A DNA stretch of 37,861 bases, taken from a virus. Below are positions 14,624 to 37,813 of this stretch, piece by piece (the stretch's first letter is position 1; each line of letters starts with the position of its first letter). The translations under genes were made by a program, and so were the position numbers. The stretch covers positions 1 through 37,861 of IMG/VR virus record IMGVR_UViG_3300032053_000216; one strand, written 5' to 3'. The notes below the pieces were generated by a model. The model worked only from the letters and a program-made list of their open reading frames with translations. It did not search any database and was not told the DNA's origin.

Positions 14624-17600
14624 ATGAACTGGTGGATAGACATCGAGCTGCCTGACGGCAGCAAAGCAGGACCCGGCCCGCTGCGCTCAGCCACGGCTTT
14701 CGAGGTCACGCGTCGGTTGGATGCGGCGGGTAAGTTCAAACTGAAGGCCAGCCTGAGTGAGCCACGCGCCTCCATGGTACAGGCCAAGCGAAGGGCGCGC
14801 TGCTGGGGGCTTATAACTGAGGTAGTTACCGACCTGGGAGCGGGAATCATCGATAAGATCGGCGTAGACACCGATCTAACCCTGGATATCTCGGGAGATG
14901 ACCTGCTGCGCGAGCTGACCTATCACCAGGTGGGGCGGCTGCTCGTGGGCGCCAGCGGGGCGCCGTCCACTACCGGACCCGCCCAGATTGCAGCATTGTT
15001 TCCTACTGGTTGGAGTCTGGATGTGGCCAACGGCCACGATGCAACTATCAAGGCCATCCATCACCGATTCGAAGGCGAGAGCTGTCTGGCGGCGTTGTGC
15101 AAATTGGCGGAGATCACCGGCGAGCATTTCCGGCTGGGGATAGGCCGCACGGTGATCTGGATGCAGAACGATCGGCCCATCTCGGGGGTGAGGGCCATCC
15201 AGGGTGGGGAGAGTATTGCTCTGGAGTCGAATCTCAACGTGTGCGTGATCACCGACCTACAAGAGGAGCAAGATAGTTACGATTGCCTGATCGGGCGCCT
15301 ATATGCCTATGGAATCGGAAATGGCGACGCTCGCATTACACTATCGGGTATCACCATCGGCGTGACCGGCTGGACTATCGGCAACGATACCAAGGGGTAT
15401 TACCTCCAACACACGGACACCTGGTCGGCATATGGCATCGAGCGCTACACCTCATTCAAGGACATCTCCGACGGCGAGACGCTGATGGAAGCGGCCTACG
15501 AATGGATGGTGGACCGCCTGGCGCTGCAAGCGGCCTACAAGATATCCATAGCCAAGCTGGACCGGACGATCCCAGTCGGATCGACCCTCCGCGTGATCTA
15601 TCGGCGGATCCTGGATAGGGTTACGGTCCTGGACATCGACGCCGATCTGGTCGTGCTGGAGACCACCACGAAATTAGACGCCGATGGGCTGCGCACCACC
15701 GCGTTGAAGGTAGCCACGGTGGACGTGTGGCCGGATAATGACACGTCGGCCATGGTGGATGGACTTGGGCAATCGCAGAAGTTTTACACCCACGACCAAG
15801 ATTTCGGTAAAGGAACGACCGCTGAGTTCCTTGTGCTCGCGGCTAGCACTTCTCTGCCGAATGAACGCATCTTCACTCCCGACGCGACCCTGACAACTGT
15901 TGATGACGGGGCGGGCGGAGCTTATCACATTGGGGTGAATGCTTCAGGCATAGGTAGTATTATTGCCAGCGCCTTTGGCGATATCATTTTGTTTAATCCC
16001 GGAGACGTTCCTGTATTTTATGACAACACGTCTACCGGCTTTGATGCAGCCCTGACAGCCGCGGCAACCGGCGCCTACATTCATGTTCCAGCGGGTGAGA
16101 TAACCGGAGTCCATTCGATTCCCGCAGATGTCACCGTAGGCGGTCATGGTTTGGCAACTATCTTCAGTGGGGCTTTGACCTGTGCCGGCTTTTTGGTAAA
16201 CGTACAGTGTGAGGCTGATATTATCCTGTCTGGTGATGGCGCGTATTTCATCTTTAATCCGGACGGAGATACCCTGACATCGCACAACTTCTTAGTGGGT
16301 GGAAATGCCGAGACCGTACCGGTCCAAAAAGGCACCATCATTGCTGGTGCAAATGAAGATGCCGCCATACATTATCGCAGCGAGACAGGTGGAGTCACCA
16401 GTGTGGTGCTGACTTATGTCTCCCAAAATTATCTCGTAGTTGATTATGCTAACGTGTATGTTGATGATAATGTGCCTGCACAACCGGCTGCCGATGCAAC
16501 GGGCGCTCCTAGTGCTCCTTTAGTGTGTCGAATTAACCCTGGCCAGTTACCAGCCGGTTTTGTTATCACGGGGTTTGCGGTAAACACTAAAGTCAAATGC
16601 CACACCTCCGGTGCGGACGAATGCAGAGATTATGAGATCCAGTTTGTCAATGGCGTAGATGCAGTTATCTCTGATAATAAGGCTACACTCGTTACATGGC
16701 CGTGGGGTGTGTACGAATACCGTGTGTACGGTAGTGCAGTGGATGACTGGAATATTGTTGGTTTGACAACCGCACTTGTCAACTCAGGCGACCTGGCATT
16801 TTGGCTGACTTTGCATAAAGACCCTCTCGTTGGGGGACTGTGGGTACAAGGTCACGTAGATTACATTGAGATCGAGATATTTGGGGATGCGCCGCTTGAA
16901 TATGTGGCGGGGTTGGATGTGACAGAAACTACATGGGCGGTAGAACCTGGAGATACTCTGACAGGAGCTGGGTTAGAGTTTAACGGTGTAACAGGGACAC
17001 TCAAAATACCGGCAACTGCACCGGAACCACCCTTAACTGTAGCATCAACGGTAATGATCGCAAGTCTCAATGCTGATCTCCTTGATGGTCAACATGCTGC
17101 CGCATTCCAAACCGCTTTGTCATTTCCATTGGCTGCAAGTCTGGGTGGTACTGGGGTAGCGGGAGGTGCAGGTTGTACTCTAACCCTGCCCAACGCTGCT
17201 ACAACAATCACGGTTGGAGGGACGATAGCCCTGGGTGGTTTTACCCTGACCATCCCGGCTACGGGTACGGCAGCTATTGGGGCTGGTACTCTTTCTTCAA
17301 CTTCTACCAACAACGTTACAGGCGCGACACACACTCACGCAATAACTGTTTCACCCACTTTGCTAGGCAACGGGACTGCGCAGTATCAAGTTATCGTGAC
17401 AGGGGCAAATCCATACGTCCCTGTTTATTCTGGTTTCCTGTTGGACGGGACGACGGGCGGCAAGACTGTATTCCTTGTAACCAATGCAAAGGTTCTTACT
17501 TTTACCGCAACGGATACGAGCGGGATCACGTTCACCGGAGCGGCGGTACTGACAGTTCCGGCTACTGGTACAGCAGCACTACTCAACCAGGCCAACAGTT

Positions 17601-18523
17601 TTACTCTTATCAATCCGCTGACCACGATAGCAGAGAGTTGGATTGGGCCGAGTGCTACTGCGGGGATTTACTTCAAGGGCGGCAAGGTCGGCGCTGGGAC
17701 GCCGAATCCTATTGCGAAATTTGATGTGATGCCAAACGCGAGAACTGGTACGCATCCGGCAACTTTGGCAAGTGCTTATTTTACTGGAGATTTGACTATA
17801 AGGGATGGATTTCGCATAGTTCACGATAATGGCACGCAAGGTATAGCGATTGGTTATTCTGGTATCCAGAAATTGGCAAACGACTCATTTACTGGTGCTG
17901 GCAATTTATCTATCGACGCGATGTCAACTGGTGATTTATTGTTGCAAACTATAAGTACAGGCAAGGTCGGTATCGGGACGCCTGATCCAGGGACAGCGCT
18001 GGATATTCTTGGAATTATTCAATCCAGCCAACTAACTAATAATGTAGTCTTACAACACGCAACCAATGGTCGAATGTCACTCCGCACAACAGACAGTAAG
18101 AGTGCCGTGTTATCGTGGTCGACTAACTCATTTAATATGGGCTGGAATAATTGGGAAGATGCGGCGGCGTGGCAGGTTGGAGATGCAGCCGCTCAGTCAG
18201 GCATCTTACGTGTGATGAATACTAGCGCCACTACCGACGTAGCTTTTGATTTTATGACTAGGGCTGCTGCCTCAGCCGCAGCGCCACTGTCTAAGGTGTC
18301 AATATTAAATAATGGCAATGTCGGTATCGGGACGCCGGGGGCACCAGGTTACACTCTGGACGTGAACGGCACAATCAACGCGGCGACCGCATATCGTTGT
18401 GGTGGTACTGCTCCTGTTGCAGATGGCACATATTGCACAGGGCAGAAAATATCGGGTGGAGGCAATAATGGGTCAATCACAACAAAAGGCGGCATCATTA
18501 CCGCGATAACACCGGCGAGTTAA
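14624..18523 (+). CDS. Tail-tip/fibre protein with hub-like N-terminus and beta-rich fibre
   Basis: 1299-aa protein. Residues 1-380 resemble a baseplate hub/tail-associated protein (WWIDIELPDGS, RSATAFEVTRRLDAAGKFKL, DLTLDISGDDLLRELTYHQVG, ISIAKLDRTIPVGSTLRVIY). Residues about 465-560 look like the start of a right-handed beta helix (DAALTAAATGAYIHVPAGEI...IPADVTVGGHGLATIFSG), as in pectate-lyase-like tailspikes. Residues about 830-1020 repeat LTIPATGTAA phrases. Three VGxGTPxP repeats occur at about 1019, 1112 and 1230, the last followed by TLDVNGTINA, as in fibres carrying an intramolecular chaperone, but no S74 peptidase follows. From about base 15950 the DNA is visibly more AT-rich, suggesting the receptor-binding part was acquired separately. 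Confidence 0.82.
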   Translation: MNWWIDIELPDGSKAGPGPLRSATAFEVTRRLDAAGKFKLKASLSEPRASMVQAKRRARCWGLITEVVTDLGAGIIDKIGVDTDLTLDISGDDLLRELTYHQVGRLLVGASGAPSTTGPAQIAALFPTGWSLDVANGHDATIKAIHHRFEGESCLAALCKLAEITGEHFRLGIGRTVIWMQNDRPISGVRAIQGGESIALESNLNVCVITDLQEEQDSYDCLIGRLYAYGIGNGDARITLSGITIGVTGWTIGNDTKGYYLQHTDTWSAYGIERYTSFKDISDGETLMEAAYEWMVDRLALQAAYKISIAKLDRTIPVGSTLRVIYRRILDRVTVLDIDADLVVLETTTKLDADGLRTTALKVATVDVWPDNDTSAMVDGLGQSQKFYTHDQDFGKGTTAEFLVLAASTSLPNERIFTPDATLTTVDDGAGGAYHIGVNASGIGSIIASAFGDIILFNPGDVPVFYDNTSTGFDAALTAAATGAYIHVPAGEITGVHSIPADVTVGGHGLATIFSGALTCAGFLVNVQCEADIILSGDGAYFIFNPDGDTLTSHNFLVGGNAETVPVQKGTIIAGANEDAAIHYRSETGGVTSVVLTYVSQNYLVVDYANVYVDDNVPAQPAADATGAPSAPLVCRINPGQLPAGFVITGFAVNTKVKCHTSGADECRDYEIQFVNGVDAVISDNKATLVTWPWGVYEYRVYGSAVDDWNIVGLTTALVNSGDLAFWLTLHKDPLVGGLWVQGHVDYIEIEIFGDAPLEYVAGLDVTETTWAVEPGDTLTGAGLEFNGVTGTLKIPATAPEPPLTVASTVMIASLNADLLDGQHAAAFQTALSFPLAASLGGTGVAGGAGCTLTLPNAATTITVGGTIALGGFTLTIPATGTAAIGAGTLSSTSTNNVTGATHTHAITVSPTLLGNGTAQYQVIVTGANPYVPVYSGFLLDGTTGGKTVFLVTNAKVLTFTATDTSGITFTGAAVLTVPATGTAALLNQANSFTLINPLTTIAESWIGPSATAGIYFKGGKVGAGTPNPIAKFDVMPNARTGTHPATLASAYFTGDLTIRDGFRIVHDNGTQGIAIGYSGIQKLANDSFTGAGNLSIDAMSTGDLLLQTISTGKVGIGTPDPGTALDILGIIQSSQLTNNVVLQHATNGRMSLRTTDSKSAVLSWSTNSFNMGWNNWEDAAAWQVGDAAAQSGILRVMNTSATTDVAFDFMTRAAASAAAPLSKVSILNNGNVGIGTPGAPGYTLDVNGTINAATAYRCGGTAPVADGTYCTGQKISGGGNNGSITTKGGIITAITPAS

Positions 18524-18991: not shown

Positions 18992-19020
18992 AAAAGCGCC
19001 CCATCAGGGGCGTTTTCTTT
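18992..19020. terminator. Bidirectional rho-independent terminator
   Basis: Stem 18993-19002 (AAAGCGCCCC) pairs with 19007-19016 (GGGGCGTTTT, one G-T pair) around loop ATCA. On the + strand TTTTCTTTTAT follows; on the - strand GCTTTTCTTAAG follows. It therefore can stop both the rightward late operon and the leftward lysogeny operon, which converge here. It overlaps the last codons of the integrase ORF. Confidence 0.82.
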
Positions 19021-20656
19021 TATAGGAACGGATTACGGCGAGAAAAGGAGCGGTAAAACTGTGTCTATGAGGATATGCCCCCAAAGGGAGCGGGGACAAA
19101 GACACAGGGAGAGCATCGTCCGGTGGAGACTTATTCGAGCTGTCTTCTAACGGATAATGATAGAAGATCATGCCGATCGCCTGGCTCTCGTGGCGATCCA
19201 CAACAATTTTACTGACAAAGCCACGCAGGATGCGCTGGGCAGTCTCCAGATCGGCGGTCTCCAGCGTGTTGCTTAGATTGCTGATCATATCGATAATTTG
19301 CTCTGCGGTCAAGTTCGGCGCGGGGCTGGCAGCCTGGCGCTCCAGGCCAGCGAGCTGGGCCAGGAAGCTGGTCTCTTCGTCTTCGAGGGCTGCCAGCTTA
19401 TCGAGCATCGCCCGCGAATGACCACTCTCGGCGATGGCGTTGGTCACATTGGCGATGCGCCTGCGCACGCCCCCCAGCAGACCGTTGATCTCGGCGCGTT
19501 TCTGATCCAGCTCTTCGAGCGCCTGGCCATGCTCGTTTTGCAGGAGCTGCTGGTGCTGCTGCATAACCTCGGGTTGCAGGACGAATTCCCGGATCGTGGT
19601 CAGCACTGCCCCCTCGACGGCTTTTTGCGGCACTGCCATTAGATCGCAGTCACGGCGGCGATAGGCGCGGGAGCAGGCGTAGCGGTCGCAGATCTTGCCG
19701 GAGTGCTGGGGAGCGGTGGCGCCGAACATGGGCGAGCCGCAGCGGGCGCAGTAGAGCAGGCCTGACAGCAGGTAACGGCTGTTGACGCGGCGCGGGTGGT
19801 GGAGGTTACCCGGTTTGGCCTTCAGGTTCAGCCGATTGGCGAAAACTTGGATGATGAGCTGCACGGCCTTCCACGTGGGTTGGTCGATGACCGGCTCGCA
19901 GTAATTCTCGATCACCAGGTCGCCGAATTCCAGGATGCCGATATACAGTTTGTTGGTGAAAAAGGTCTGGTAAGAATTCAGGCTGCCGTAGAGGTGAGTC
20001 GTGGCGTGGATCTCCGCCAGAGTCTTACCAGCCGCGCGCATAGCAAAGGCCTGGCGGATGCGGGGCAGCTCGTCGGGATTGGGCACCCAGCGGTGAGCGA
20101 TGCGATCCTGGCCATTGCGGCGCTTGCCGATGGTTGTCGGCTCACGCTTGAAACCCCTGGGTGGGGTGCCAGGCACTGCCCCGTGGTTCTTGACCAGGTC
20201 ATGCAGCCCGCGGCGCGTGTCACGCGAGAGATCTTCCAGGAAGTTTTCGTTCTTCCAGTCGATCACCGCCTCGAAGAGTCTGCCGATCGAGCCTTCGGGG
20301 ATATCGTCATTGAGCGAATAGAAAATGTACCCGCGCCTCCGCAAGTCAGCCCGGTAGAACTGGGCATCATCAAAATCACGTGCAAAACGGGAATACGACC
20401 AGATCACCAGGCCGGTTTCCTTCGCCTGGCCTGAGCGGAAATGATGGATCATGTCGTGGAAGCCGGCGCGGCTGACGACCGATGAGCCAGGCCTGGCCAC
20501 ATCCTTGAAGATGGCTCCAGGAATCAACCCGTTCTGGGCGCACCAGGCGTGGAAGGCGCTTTCCTGCTGCGGGACGGAGAGCTCCTGGGTGTCTCCGCCC
20601 GAATCTCGAAAGTAGGCCGCTACCAGGCTGCCAGGGGAAAAGGAGTGAACGTTCAT
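19004..20656 (-). CDS. Large serine integrase (site-specific recombinase)
   Basis: 550-aa large serine recombinase that would integrate the phage at attB. The N-terminal catalytic domain begins LVAAYFRDSGGDTQELSVPQQ-like text, with nucleophile Ser19 in the YxRxS motif, and carries WSYSRFARD at about 86-94. The recombinase domain (about 160-270) has the PRGFKRE and YQTFFTNKLYIGILEFG phrases. A zinc ribbon follows (LLYCARCGSP...ICDRYACSRAYRRRDCD), then a coiled coil (about 380-450) typical of this class. The last about 45 residues (SLSPLPLGAYPHRHSF...RKRP) look non-conserved and overlap the terminator. It is the final gene of the leftward operon, 7 bases after the exonuclease gene. Confidence 0.92.
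   Translation of the reverse strand: MNVHSFSPGSLVAAYFRDSGGDTQELSVPQQESAFHAWCAQNGLIPGAIFKDVARPGSSVVSRAGFHDMIHHFRSGQAKETGLVIWSYSRFARDFDDAQFYRADLRRRGYIFYSLNDDIPEGSIGRLFEAVIDWKNENFLEDLSRDTRRGLHDLVKNHGAVPGTPPRGFKREPTTIGKRRNGQDRIAHRWVPNPDELPRIRQAFAMRAAGKTLAEIHATTHLYGSLNSYQTFFTNKLYIGILEFGDLVIENYCEPVIDQPTWKAVQLIIQVFANRLNLKAKPGNLHHPRRVNSRYLLSGLLYCARCGSPMFGATAPQHSGKICDRYACSRAYRRRDCDLMAVPQKAVEGAVLTTIREFVLQPEVMQQHQQLLQNEHGQALEELDQKRAEINGLLGGVRRRIANVTNAIAESGHSRAMLDKLAALEDEETSFLAQLAGLERQAASPAPNLTAEQIIDMISNLSNTLETADLETAQRILRGFVSKIVVDRHESQAIGMIFYHYPLEDSSNKSPPDDALPVSLSPLPLGAYPHRHSFTAPFLAVIRSYKRKRP
19059..19107. other. Candidate attP-like imperfect inverted repeat
   Basis: A 49-base segment bounded by CTGTGTCT (19059-19066) and AGACACAG (19100-19107); the arms match at 10 of 11 positions. 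Serine integrase attP sites are about 50 bp imperfect dyads next to the integrase gene, so size and location fit. It lies inside the poorly conserved 3' end of the integrase ORF. Purely a candidate. Confidence 0.25.
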
Positions 20657-20663
20657 CTTGGAT

Positions 20664-21521
20664 TTATTCTTCAGTAATCAGACGCAAAAAATCGCTTTCT
20701 TTAAGAATACGTATCGCCTGGCCAGATTTAATCAAGGTTTCGGCTTTGCGATGTTTTGAGCTTTTATCATGGCCAGCTAATTTGCGTATATCCTGATCAC
20801 CAACGACAAGCAAAGTAGTCCCTTTTGTAACGCCTACGCCAACATCACATCCGGCTTGAGCAGCCATTTCAGCGGCTTGATGGCGAGGTATATTTATTGC
20901 GCCAGTAAATACTATAACTTCTCCGGCTAACGATCCGTTTGGATTGCCTTGACGGGAAATTGATAAAAGCGATGATGGAAATATAGGTTGCTCAATTCGC
21001 TTAAGCCAGTCCGATATATTCAATCCTGTCTCGGCAATTGCATGTAATAAAACTTCACCGGTTACACGTGCATCTTCAATAGCAATATGGTGAGTGAATT
21101 TTATATCAAGGTGTTGTGCAAGGTTAGCTATTCCATATCCTTTTTGTGCGAATTGAACCCAAGCGCGGCGCGCAACTCTAGCGGTATCTAACCAAGTACA
21201 CTTAATAATGGGAAGACCGTAACGTAAAAGCGATCGATTTATAGATGCTTTATCGAAAGCGGTGTGCGTAGCGACAATTTGACCATAAAGTAGTCTGCGA
21301 AGATTCTCATCGATTTTGGGGAAGGTTGGTGCACCTATTACTTTTTCTTCGTCAATCCCATGTATGCTGATGTTCAAAGGGTCAAAATAATCTTCTGGAT
21401 CAATGAATGACTGCCATTTATGTACAACTTGGCCATTGGCATAAGCGATAATCCCGATCTGACAGATACTAGCCAGATCGGGATTGGCGGTTTCGACGTC
21501 CAGAGCGATGAAATCTATCAT
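20664..21521 (-). CDS. DEDDh 3'-5' exonuclease with C-terminal BRCT domain
   Basis: 285-aa protein like the DNA polymerase III epsilon family. Asp8 and Glu10 in FIALDVETAN, the ATHTAFDKA segment at about 104-112 and HHIAIEDARVTG at about 153-164 supply the DEDDh active site. Residues about 208-285 are a BRCT domain (GEVIVFTGAINIPRHQAAEMA...GVTKGTTLLVVGDQD). Similar exonuclease-BRCT proteins are widespread in bacteria. It would degrade single-stranded DNA or RNA ends. Located in the repressor-integrase operon, it may be expressed in the lysogen and could act in recombination or in defence against other DNA (inference). Confidence 0.85.
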   Translation of the reverse strand: MIDFIALDVETANPDLASICQIGIIAYANGQVVHKWQSFIDPEDYFDPLNISIHGIDEEKVIGAPTFPKIDENLRRLLYGQIVATHTAFDKASINRSLLRYGLPIIKCTWLDTARVARRAWVQFAQKGYGIANLAQHLDIKFTHHIAIEDARVTGEVLLHAIAETGLNISDWLKRIEQPIFPSSLLSISRQGNPNGSLAGEVIVFTGAINIPRHQAAEMAAQAGCDVGVGVTKGTTLLVVGDQDIRKLAGHDKSSKHRKAETLIKSGQAIRILKESDFLRLITEE

Positions 21522-21528
21522 GTGTTAT

Positions 21529-21909
21529 TTATTCGTCATTTGAAAATGTAACTTTTACTCCGGTTTTAGAACATATAATCGTGACAGATGCTTCTGTGTC
21601 GATATCTAAATCTTTTCCAGCGAGGCCCTGCCATTGAGCTAAATAATTCAGTGTTCCTTTCCTCTTCTTACCTTTGAAACCCAAAGGAACTCCTCCCCTC
21701 CAAATTAATATCATTAATTCACCATTCTTTGCTTGAATTGCTAAATCAGGGGATTCTTGGCTTTTCTGACGCCCTCGCTCCCAGCACCATATCAAACCTT
21801 TATCAGATGCTCTCCATCTATGCTCCATATCAACAAATTCCCCGATCGGTTCATCAATTGAGCGATAGATTTTCATATTACAATAACTGCCGAATATATG
21901 CTCGTGCAT
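21529..21909 (-). CDS. Hypothetical lysogeny-operon protein
   Basis: 126-aa soluble protein in the leftward operon, overlapping the upstream membrane gene by 32 bases. Alternatively it starts at Met12 (position 21876, MKIYRSIDEP), 1 base after that gene's stop. Visible segments: HRWRASDKGLIWCWERGRQ, ELMILIWRGGVPLGFKGKKRKG and SVTIICSKTGVKVTFSNDE. It is beta-rich with a basic middle. No family recognised. Its AT-richer sequence matches its two neighbours and differs from the late operon, suggesting a separate origin. Confidence 0.6.
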   Translation of the reverse strand: MHEHIFGSYCNMKIYRSIDEPIGEFVDMEHRWRASDKGLIWCWERGRQKSQESPDLAIQAKNGELMILIWRGGVPLGFKGKKRKGTLNYLAQWQGLAGKDLDIDTEASVTIICSKTGVKVTFSNDE

Positions 21910-22207
21910 TCTGGATCCGCTGATCGTATTCGTCGATTTTAGCTTCTCGTTTCTGTACGATGAAATAATCAGGAATGCCGCCTATTGCGCAAATTGGTAT
22001 CAAAATGATACTGCATCCCCACCAACCAATCAAGAAAAAGAAAATACCTGCTAGTATACCTAGACCCGCCAACCAATAGGAAAGACGGTAAATGTTTAGA
22101 TTCCTTTCAAGTTTCTTACGCTCTTCTTCATATTCGGCGAGGTAAAGTTCTGCTTTTTTAATTTCAATTTGCTTTTCAATTACAGTTAATTCTTTCATCT
22201 GTTCCAT
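21878..22207 (-). CDS. Membrane protein with coiled coils flanking two helices
   Basis: 109-aa protein: a charged coiled coil (residues about 4-38, VIEKQIEIKKAELYLAEYEE), two closely spaced transmembrane helices (about 45-62 and 65-82, AGLGILAGIFFFLIGWWGCS) and a second charged helix (about 85-108). This is the shape of a hairpin membrane anchor with both ends cytosolic. Lysogeny-operon membrane proteins often alter the host envelope or block superinfection, but no family is recognised. It overlaps both neighbours in the operon. Confidence 0.6.
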   Translation of the reverse strand: MEQMKELTVIEKQIEIKKAELYLAEYEEERKKLERNLNIYRLSYWLAGLGILAGIFFFLIGWWGCSIILIPICAIGGIPDYFIVQKREAKIDEYDQRIQNARAYIRQLL

Positions 22208-22494
22208 TTTGCCCTCACTCCCTCGAAACAGACTCTGACAATCGCCAGGTTGACCGCCAGCACGTACCCGGCGCCGATCGCCAGCATGGCGGAGCGCAGG
22301 CTAAAGGGGAAGAATAGCATCAGCGCCAGCGCCAGGACCAGCGTGGCCTGCACCAGGCGCGCCGGTCCTGCAGCCGTCTGCTTGCCGCCTATAACCCGCG
22401 CCAGGCGCAGCCAGGAATTACGATCATTAATTGTTAATAATTGCCAGATATGGACAAGCTCAAATGTTCGCCGGTCTGGCCTGTGGTGTTTCAC
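22195..22494 (-). CDS. Small membrane protein in lysogeny operon
   Basis: 99-aa protein starting at GTG (22494) with GAGGGG 7 bases upstream. Residues 1-45 are soluble and basic (KHHRPDRRTFELVHIWQLL); residues about 48-90 hold two hydrophobic helices (LVQATLVLALALMLFFPFSL, SAMLAIGAGYVLAVNLAIV); the end is basic (EGVRAKWNR). It overlaps the end of the repressor gene by 35 bases and the next gene by 13. Function unknown; an envelope or superinfection-exclusion role is only suggested by location. Confidence 0.55.
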   Translation of the reverse strand: MKHHRPDRRTFELVHIWQLLTINDRNSWLRLARVIGGKQTAAGPARLVQATLVLALALMLFFPFSLRSAMLAIGAGYVLAVNLAIVRVCFEGVRAKWNR

Positions 22495-22852
22495 GTTTTT
22501 CCCCTCGCTTATTGCGTAACTCGATTTTAACCCTTCCTATGGCCAGAAATTCCAGCTGCTCCTCGTCGGTCATCTGGCTGAATAGGTGTTTCAGCTCTTC
22601 GAAGTCTTCATCCGTGCCCGGGTGGTTGGGCAGAATGCCGGCTGCCCGAAAGACGGTTTCGGGGGGGATATTAAAGGCTCGTGCAATAGCACGACAGGTC
22701 TCTTCACCTATGCCTTTAGACCCACTTGTTATATTGCTTAATGTGCCTCGGGATAATCCTGCTCGCCGAGCCAGTTCACTTTGAGTCCAGCTCTGTTCAT
22801 CTAATTCTTTATTTAGCCAACTGGCGAAACTATTGTTTTCCACAGAAAACAT
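22460..22852 (-). CDS. Phage repressor, XRE/HTH_3 family
   Basis: 130-aa protein with an N-terminal lambda-repressor-like helix-turn-helix at about residues 22-60 (WTQSELARRAGLSRGTLSNITSGSKGI), then FNIPPETVFRAAGILP and an acidic C-terminal half (DEDFEELKHLFSQMTDEEQLEF). It lacks a LexA-type autoprotease domain, so induction would not be by RecA-driven self-cleavage. As first gene of the leftward operon, divergent from a ribbon-helix-helix gene, it is the likely lysogeny repressor acting at 22869-22963. The start ATG at 22852 has no clear ribosome site. Confidence 0.85.
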   Translation of the reverse strand: MFSVENNSFASWLNKELDEQSWTQSELARRAGLSRGTLSNITSGSKGIGEETCRAIARAFNIPPETVFRAAGILPNHPGTDEDFEELKHLFSQMTDEEQLEFLAIGRVKIELRNKRGEKRETPQARPANI

Positions 22853-22868
22853 TATTGCACACTTTTAG

Positions 22869-22963
22869 CTTTCTTAGGAAAGTGATAATCTTTCTATATT
22901 GACATCTAATAGAATATATGATAATATCTTTCTTGAGACAACAAATATAAGCAATAAAGAAAG
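22869..22963 (+). promoter_or_regulatory. Divergent lysogeny-switch region: early promoter and operator repeats
   Basis: On the + strand TTGACA (22899-22904), a 17-base spacer and TAATAT (22922-22927) form a strong sigma70-like promoter for the rightward early genes. Repeats around it look like operators: GATAATCTTTCT (22884-22895), GATAATATCTTTCT (22920-22933, covering the -10), CTTTC/GAAAG dyad at 22869-22882, and an inverted AAGAAAG at 22957-22963. Binding there would block the early promoter. The leftward repressor promoter is not clear. Confidence 0.72.
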
Positions 22964-37069: not shown

Positions 37070-37813
37070 ATGACATATTGCACTTGGTGTGGAGAATGGT
37101 TCACTCCTGATAATGAACATCCTTATCAGAAGTTTTGCCGTACTGAACACCGTAAGAAATATGATCATAAGCAAGAGAATATTAGGCGATCGCAGAAGAG
37201 GAGAGAGAAGTTCACACCTTGCCCATTTTGCGGAACGCCATTCTCGCCATCTAAAGAGCATCTGAAATATTGCTCTGATATGTGCAGTTCTATAGCATAT
37301 GTTCTGAATATTCAGGAGCGCCATAAAACAATAGTAACTGAAAATAAAGGTCGGATACGAAATTGCAAATATTGTGGCCGCGAATTCAACACTAAAGTAA
37401 CAGGCCGTTCTAAATATGATACAGACAAATGCTATTTTCTTGATGTTTATGGCCACGAAGAACCCCGTGAAATAGTAAAGAATTGTGAGTATTGTGGTAA
37501 AGAATATCCGACCAGGATATCTAAATCAATTGCTTGTTGCCACGGTCATACACGTAGGTTGAATAAGATCAGACGTAAAGCGAGAATGCGTAGCACTGAA
37601 CAAGTGCATTATTCAAGGTTCGGAATCTTTCAACGTGATAACTTCATCTGCTATATATGCGGCAGGCCTTTGAATATGGATGCGGTTGCCCCTCAATGGG
37701 ATAGTCCCTCTATAGATCATGTTGTGGCATTGTCTAATGGTGGAAATGATACGCCAAGTAATGTGAAGGCTGCTCACTTCCTATGTAACACGATCAAGAG
37801 TAATAGACAATGA
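37070..37813 (+). CDS. Multi-zinc-finger HNH homing endonuclease-like protein
   Basis: 247-aa protein directly after the HNH stop. It has four Cys-rich ribbons: CTWCGEWF...FCRTEH, CPFCGTPFS...CSDMC, CKYCGREFN...DKCYF and CEYCGKEYP...CCHGH, followed by a C-terminal HNH: FQRDNFICYICGRPLNM, SIDHVVALSNGGND, HFLCNTIKSNRQ. These zinc ribbons are probably DNA-binding, as in GIY/HNH homing endonucleases. The gene is visibly more AT-rich than its neighbours, pointing to independent acquisition. Confidence 0.8.
   Translation: MTYCTWCGEWFTPDNEHPYQKFCRTEHRKKYDHKQENIRRSQKRREKFTPCPFCGTPFSPSKEHLKYCSDMCSSIAYVLNIQERHKTIVTENKGRIRNCKYCGREFNTKVTGRSKYDTDKCYFLDVYGHEEPREIVKNCEYCGKEYPTRISKSIACCHGHTRRLNKIRRKARMRSTEQVHYSRFGIFQRDNFICYICGRPLNMDAVAPQWDSPSIDHVVALSNGGNDTPSNVKAAHFLCNTIKSNRQ

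Follow-up and report, generated by a model that had tools for sequence, protein, structure and literature searches.

A prophage lysogeny operon carrying a small membrane protein, a conserved protein X and a DEDDh-BRCT exonuclease: a candidate anti-phage module

Introduction

Which function do the genes lodged between the repressor and the integrase of a prophage have in the lysogen? The question is raised by the IMG/VR virus record IMGVR_UViG_3300032053_000216, which was analyzed over its whole length of 37,861 bases (the window). On its minus strand, a leftward operon starts with a helix-turn-helix (HTH) repressor gene, ends with a large serine integrase gene, and encodes in between two small membrane proteins (memA and memB), a small protein that we call X, and a predicted exonuclease with a DEDDh and a BRCT domain. 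Defense nucleases borne by prophages are known in kind, and a sequence-only reading of this locus had guessed that the four genes form a defense unit. Our analysis supports the guess for X and the exonuclease, through their linkage and genomic ties to defense systems, makes it plausible for memB, and lends it no support for memA. We consider it possible, and only slightly on the doubtful side, that memB, X and the DEDDh-BRCT exonuclease together make up a conflict module carried by the prophage; it would be expressed in the lysogen from the repressor promoter and would most likely act against phages, as a defense against superinfection.

An AT-rich block in the lysogeny operon

The genes concerned are the following (positions in the window; aa, amino acids; GC3, GC content at third codon positions).

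20664..22207, minus strand: AT-rich cargo block of memB, X and the exonuclease, from the GC3 comparison
20664..21521, minus strand: predicted DEDDh 3'-5' exonuclease with C-terminal BRCT domain, 285 aa, from domain and residue matches
21529..21876, minus strand: protein X, 115 aa, from the family alignment and a structural model
21878..22207, minus strand: memB, 109 aa, small membrane protein, AT-rich, directly upstream of X
22195..22494, minus strand: memA, 99 aa, two transmembrane segments, GC-rich, from hydropathy and GC content
22460..22852, minus strand: Cro/C1-type HTH repressor (HTH_3, E=2.3e-12; phage repressor PHROGs), first gene of the leftward operon
19004..20656, minus strand: large serine integrase (Resolvase, E=1.8e-14; phrog_95, E=3.5e-63), which ends the operon and lies outside the module

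All four genes that the sequence-only reading had placed between repressor and integrase are present, although the span it gave them, 19004-22494, takes in the integrase as well. The memA gene has a GTG start and overlaps the end of the repressor gene by 35 bases, and 7 bases separate the X and exonuclease genes. The open reading frame (ORF) listed for X covers 21529-21909; its true start is most likely the 12th codon, an ATG at 21876: the similarity to relatives sets in at this codon, and the gene then no longer overlaps memB. From the position of the genes, the operon would be transcribed in the lysogen.

The unknown and membrane genes had been described as AT-richer than the repressor and the integrase. 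This is correct for memB (GC/GC3 0.379/0.364) and X (0.397/0.328), and also applies to the exonuclease (0.423/0.322), which had not been listed, but it fails for memA (0.587/0.690), the corresponding values being 0.598/0.739 for the integrase and 0.491/0.473 for the repressor. The edges of the AT-rich stretch are sharp, at ~20,660 and ~22,200, and coincide with the exonuclease and memB. Since both values of the block lie below those of memA, the integrase and the repressor, the foreign-looking block consists of memB, X and the exonuclease; memA, which shares neither composition nor any detected linkage with it, probably does not belong to the imported DNA.

Protein X and its BRCT partners

Relatives of X were retrieved with X-only queries from viral contigs, from GTDB genomes and from one phage (PG1); there was no match on plasmids. 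Their 28-row alignment holds 15 invariant columns, and the invariant or nearly invariant positions center on D-x-GLI-x-x-WE-x-GR, EL and G-x-L-x-YLA-x-WQ. The X protein of PG1 (locus L003) is in alignment A3 and absent from the alignment that was folded. None of the 28 members had a meaningful match in NCBIfam, Pfam, PHROGs or PADLOC, where unrelated families were hit by single members only (1, 1, 2 and 3 families, respectively; E-values from 0.015 to 0.075). The AlphaFold2 (AF2) model of X has a predicted local distance difference test score (pLDDT) of 91.9 and a predicted template modeling score (pTM) of 0.86; its fold found no match at E<=0.001 in the PDB and viral libraries, with a best VIA-align Z of 2.9, which shows no relation either way. 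Judged by its alignment, X is a conserved family without a curated model. In one Pseudomonas genus group (298 genomes sampled) X is present in 105 genomes and a helical-BRCT protein in 52, and in other samples X is rare (1/198, 3/369, 2/296 and 2/297 genomes, counts that include 1, 1, 2 and 1 already known carriers, respectively).

Among 24 viral records with X (the window, PG1 and 22 from IMG/VR), a BRCT protein adjoins X in 23, a set that includes near-copies (16 distinct X proteins among the first 20). In the remaining record, L027, X is fused behind a DEDDh exonuclease and there is no BRCT domain. In the window, the X homologue is adjacent to a DEDDh-BRCT effector, the arrangement that we propose as an X-BRCT pair. 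Conserved linkage had been suggested as a check of the defense guess, and it was found to be strong between X and BRCT proteins and was not detected for memA or memB. The domain that precedes BRCT is interchangeable: DEDDh in the window and L010, a helical domain in most loci, and a small beta domain in L018 and in the Pseudomonas locus L031. The partners of L018, L041 and L035 pass the Pfam cut-off for BRCT, and those of L002, L036 and L003 fall just below it. X lies directly upstream of the effector in most loci, the order being reversed in L010 and convergent in L035. In 18 of the 23 viral loci other than the window, an ORF whose start looks by eye like that of an HTH regulator is located no more than 500 bases upstream of the X start; the script found none within this distance in L010, L022, L025, L026 and L027.

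Over the whole family the picture is mixed. Of 94 dereplicated X loci, a classification that precedes the later finds and counts L027 as exo-BRCT, 49 are linked to BRCT or exonuclease genes and 45 are not, and the Pseudomonas sample with its many solo X genes led us to reject the view that X always stands beside a BRCT gene. In a tree of X, one Pseudomonas clade of 53 rows (support 97/89) holds 13 helical-BRCT pairs; the 38 rows outside it comprise 35 BRCT-adjacent X genes and 3 fusions, L027 being entered here as a fusion without BRCT. The tree omits duplicates (L001, L011, L043, L044, L045, L046, L095, L097, L109 and L113-L116) and proteins with fewer than 90 matched X residues (L042, L083 and L112, all without a BRCT neighbor); L126-L129, found after it was built, lie outside it; a later search added four helical-BRCT viral X loci, which are not placed in the tree. 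When tables were compared by eye, 23 of the 24 best helical-BRCT matches in the Pseudomonas sample stood beside X; the 24th (genome G467, L103) adjoins what looks by eye like an X remnant, and six further matches there are partial.

Some domain assignments were made by eye only, and Pfam returned no counterpart for three of them: TerB-like for the helical domain, WYL-like for the beta domain of L018 and L031 (of which L018 was the one scanned), and ADP-ribosyltransferase-like for the C-terminus in L072. At that locus (1255-2400, genome G374), a divergent X forms the N-terminus of a 381-aa protein, which has no Pfam match and whose C-terminal 241 residues match no PDB sequence. In many Pseudomonas genomes X occupies what looks like a fixed position in the chromosome, close to genes that by eye encode a GH15-like protein and an alpha/beta-hydrolase, whether the helical-BRCT gene is present or absent (L047, L048, L051, L053, L082 and others).

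The exonuclease

The sequence-only reading of the neighboring gene product as a DEDDh exonuclease with BRCT was borne out for the DEDDh domain and is likely for BRCT. Pfam identifies RNase_T (PF00929) at E=1.7e-13, which places the domain among DEDDh exonucleases; the BRCT match in Pfam (E=0.0037, 17.9 bits) is below the 21.3-bit cut-off, and it is in a PDB profile search that the family profile reaches the BRCT chains of LigA and RFC1 at E-values of 4e-6 to 5e-4. The nearest solved relatives are PolC, DinG, Pol III epsilon and ExoX, with LigA and RFC1 at the BRCT end. The AF2 model (mean pLDDT 82.3, pTM 0.62) is matched to ExoX by Foldseek at E=2.4e-10, and the PHROG label is that of a DNA polymerase exonuclease subunit. 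Residues D8, E10, D90, H145 and D150 are kept in all 14 aligned rows, and T206, R213, K256 and K259, which presumably contact DNA, are invariant in all 13 rows that bear a BRCT domain. The protein is probably a 3'-5' exonuclease acting on DNA, with a C-terminal BRCT domain. An X-partner exo-BRCT protein of genome G1326 (L117:3-1523; wider locus L121:2910-4616), 568 aa long in the wider locus, has a long extra C-terminal part in which a GIY-YIG-like stretch was seen by eye.

As a query on its own, the exonuclease had no matches in viral contigs; among phage records it matched 49 of 50,697, with a query coverage of 80% or more in 28 of these. Eight records of phages or satellites were inspected (IPP44, staphylococcal phage 47, phi30c, Javan310, Javan542, Javan175, Pmp8 and Mcat9), and in five of these the exo-BRCT gene stands just before the integrase. 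In four of them (IPP44, staphylococcal phage 47, phi30c and Javan310) a gene annotated as a regulator, a DNA-binding protein or an S24 protein precedes it, in some cases at a distance of one or a few genes, and in Javan542 it follows a hypothetical gene. The order of regulator, exo-BRCT gene and integrase is not clear in Pmp8 and Mcat9, and Javan175 was rejected as a carrier, its exonuclease before the integrase being without a BRCT match. These phrog_192 genes, carried by temperate phages and satellites of staphylococci, streptococci and Moraxella, encode the same pair of predicted domains, DEDDh and BRCT, but their products are only ~28-42% identical to the window protein over most of its length. 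Their annotations range over ligase, DinG, exonuclease and epsilon subunit, and none of the eight inspected loci has X. The best plasmid match, on Desulforapulum plasmid pHRM2a (L008), has 51% identity over 99% of the query and adjoins a predicted lincosamide nucleotidyltransferase gene.

The membrane proteins

Hydropathy gives two hydrophobic segments for memA, two overlapping ones for memB and none for X. There was no match above the cut-off for memA in the family libraries scanned, and no relative of memB in phage records or in viral contigs, where the search was sensitive to close relatives only; no homologue of either protein turned up in the ORFs of the fetched loci, the public collections not having been searched with memA. 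The tree groups the X of the window with those of L010, L027 and L002 (100/96; the tool warns that long branches meet there), and all four members of this subclade have an adjacent small membrane ORF on the same strand (45-130 aa, hydrophobic segment score at least 2.0): memB in the window, two ORFs in L010, and one each in L002 and L027. The group is small, and short ORFs need not be genes. The same signature is found in 11 of 144 control ORFs (7.6%), in 3 of 40 within the same four subclade records, and next to X in only one of the 25 other X loci (L036). By phmmer, the adjacent ORFs show no homology to memB or among themselves, and a search with the subclade's own alignment retrieved only its three known viral members. 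We ruled out the membrane pair as a conserved unit because neither gene has a homologue among the fetched loci or the adjacent membrane ORFs. A membrane partner of X is supported as a class, not as one protein family, and is plausible for memB.

Ties to known defense systems

One tie of X to defense is a fusion. In Pseudomonas genome G231 (L118:4353-6785), X forms the C-terminus of an 810-aa GajB (E=1.3e-213) that directly follows GajA (E=1.1e-234), and JetA of Wadjet (E=1.6e-114) is encoded nearby, as is a WYL protein. No other fusion of this kind turned up among the X loci read from that sample. On contig C204 of genome G003 (L119), an X/exo-BRCT pair lies between SngA (E=6.9e-92), SngB (E=1.3e-182) and SngC (E=1.4e-284) on one side, directly after SngC, and an ATPase matching AriA (E=1.7e-52) and Old (E=1.2e-51) on the other. 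Within ~5 kb of two other X copies there are a type II methyltransferase and Vsr (L028) and the candidate pair PDC-M19A/B with a weak retron-type PRTase match, E=6.6e-5 (L030), and the single neighbor scanned with PADLOC in L029 had no match. A NADAR-like protein (by eye) is encoded two genes after the X/exo-BRCT pair of L030 (7315-7884) and has no PADLOC match.

The window exonuclease itself matches the PADLOC candidate PDC-S48 at E=6e-31 in two stretches. Like that candidate it has DEDDh and a probable BRCT in one protein (Pfam and PDB profile search), but with 285 aa against a profile of 411 positions it is without the middle region (~174-320), its best stretch covering profile positions 6-173. 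The profile seems to consist of a DEDDh part, a BRCT part and, between them, a region to which the helical-BRCT protein of L002 aligns; this protein and the BRCT proteins of L018 and L041 have their matches in the middle and C-terminal portions. The 28 X proteins gave no match to PDC-S48, and we saw no sign of X in it; no paper naming PDC-S48 was found in open-licence PubMed Central (PMC) text.

Likeness to other systems is likewise partial. The G231 fusion links X to Gabija and the L119 pair links it to Shango, but PADLOC found neither GajA or GajB nor SngA, SngB or SngC among the six proteins scanned from the lysogeny region of the window. Shango, composed of the TerB-like SngA, the ATPase SngB and the helicase SngC, is described in passages of PMC10250203 as blocking phages, and its TerB-like component recalls the helical partner domain of X by eye, a likeness that Pfam does not return. 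BRCT, TerB and 3'-5' exoRNase domains are named as fusion partners of WYL domains in a defense context in a passage of Makarova et al. 2014 (PMC4012209) that mentions neither X nor its pairing. The diDNases, a separate subfamily of DEDD nucleases on mobile elements with a proposed role in immunity (PMC11706625, in part), differ in that the term BRCT has 0 occurrences in the text. No description of the X family, of its pairing with swappable BRCT effectors or of the GajB-X fusion was found in open-licence PMC text, as covered by titles, starts of abstracts, term counts and passages.

Proposed function and alternatives

If memB, X and the exonuclease do form a conflict module, the BRCT domain would bind nicks or accessible DNA ends carrying a 5' phosphate, for example on a linear phage genome that has just entered the cell or is being processed, and the DEDDh domain would then degrade the 3' ends. 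We infer the end-binding from the conserved residues and from the isolated BRCT domain of RFC1, which according to passages of PMC9293004 binds recessed 5'-phosphate DNA with a dissociation constant of ~10 nM and has a different binding mode in the full complex. X, the unchanging partner, could act as an adaptor or regulator by which the end-binding effector is licensed or directed; this would explain why effector domains are swapped around it. The small membrane protein could keep the unit close to where DNA enters. Free ends would be present on an incoming linear phage genome but not on the resident prophage or the chromosome. A more far-reaching version, which we regard as rather unlikely, makes X the adaptor domain that founds a modular anti-phage family with interchangeable effectors (DEDDh-BRCT, helical TerB-like-BRCT and beta-BRCT), also built into a Gabija helicase, of which the window lineage would be a three-part, membrane-placed DNA-end nuclease protecting the lysogen.

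Several observations speak against a defense role. All 40 solo X genes of the tree fall in the Pseudomonas clade, the fixed-looking site of many of them suggests a housekeeping or domesticated gene, and in L112 (G550) an X with an insertion lies inside a 331-aa protein with no BRCT gene in the locus. Pseudomonas also has a second group of helical-BRCT proteins, 22 full or nearly full genes (G479, G504, G473, G306 and 18 other genomes) that by eye are not near X. The tree (91 rows, 87 different) carries warnings of few columns and of many long branches, the group of the window included, and the threshold for membrane ORFs was set after the first list had been seen. In the 8 phage and 2 plasmid loci, X was not detected beside the exonuclease, and in the absence of a fold match the role of X is judged by its company alone. 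The PADLOC scans of neighbors covered proteins picked by eye in few loci, leaving out those of L032-L036, L041, L111 and L117, so the ties to defense genes are suggestive and do not amount to an enrichment test; defense genes often lie close to accessory genes. The match to PDC-S48 is not very specific, since a differently built DEDDh protein (L028:9179-10339) is hit as well, at E=1.2e-8.

The main rival of the conflict module is an aid to repair or recombination of the prophage or host, in which the exonuclease would trim ends at excision, integration or replication, X with BRCT would recruit it to nicks, and the place in the lysogeny operon would reflect co-regulation with the integrase. The solved relatives of the exonuclease (ExoX, PolC, DinG and Pol III epsilon) and its PHROG label agree with this explanation, as do the proximity of its gene to the integrase gene, which is seen here and in several Gram-positive phages and satellites, and the housekeeping look of solo X at its Pseudomonas chromosomal locus. 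However, the X/exo-BRCT unit also occurs in chromosomal contigs with no integrase seen beside it, other domains can take the place of DEDDh while X stays the same, the GajB fusion and the Shango neighborhood point elsewhere, and serine integrases are not known to need an exonuclease. On balance we hold the repair explanation to be rather unlikely, though it deserves serious attention.

Much less probable, in our estimate, is a toxin-like or abortive-infection unit whose exonuclease would attack the host chromosome when triggered, with X as inhibitor or sensor. A small conserved protein directly upstream of the effector in most loci, the swapping of effectors around a constant partner, and the fusion of X in L072 to a domain that by eye resembles an ADP-ribosyltransferase would suit such a unit, but X is kept without a BRCT neighbor in many Pseudomonas genomes, L103 keeps the BRCT gene with only the apparent X remnant, and the gene order can be reversed (L010) or convergent (L035). 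We give slightly less credit still to neutral hitch-hiking, in which small genes that are unrelated and do not work together arrived in an AT-rich insertion. It accords with the failure to find relatives of memB or matches of either membrane gene among the ORFs of other loci, where the grouping is by position only; the X/BRCT linkage nevertheless recurs in several bacterial phyla and the catalytic residues are kept, which argues against it.

If X is indeed a defense adaptor, it could provide a new search handle for prophage-borne and chromosomal defense systems, a role would be suggested for the variously annotated DEDDh-BRCT genes near the integrase of Gram-positive phages, and BRCT, a repair domain best known from eukaryotes, would be placed in phage-phage conflict. 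X deserves attention as a protein that is widespread in one Pseudomonas genus group and has neither family model nor fold match, yet is tied to BRCT proteins and to one GajB helicase.

Other features of the window

Consensus scans gave three candidate control sites around the operon.

18993..19016, both strands: terminator-like hairpin at the end of the leftward operon
22913..22941, minus strand: weak promoter-like site upstream of the repressor
22899-22927: rightward promoter-like site facing the leftward site at 22913..22941

The evidence for them is weak, the window containing 8 terminator-like sites against 5.7 expected by shuffling and 8 promoter-like sites against 5.5. At the right end of the record (37070-37813) there is a further AT-rich ORF, whose GC of 0.403 and GC3 of 0.355 resemble those of the cargo block. 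The N-terminus of the long tail-like protein of the window (14624-18523) resembles by eye a tail-like protein of the L027 virus (L027:7887-9881), and the two phages may therefore be related outside the module.

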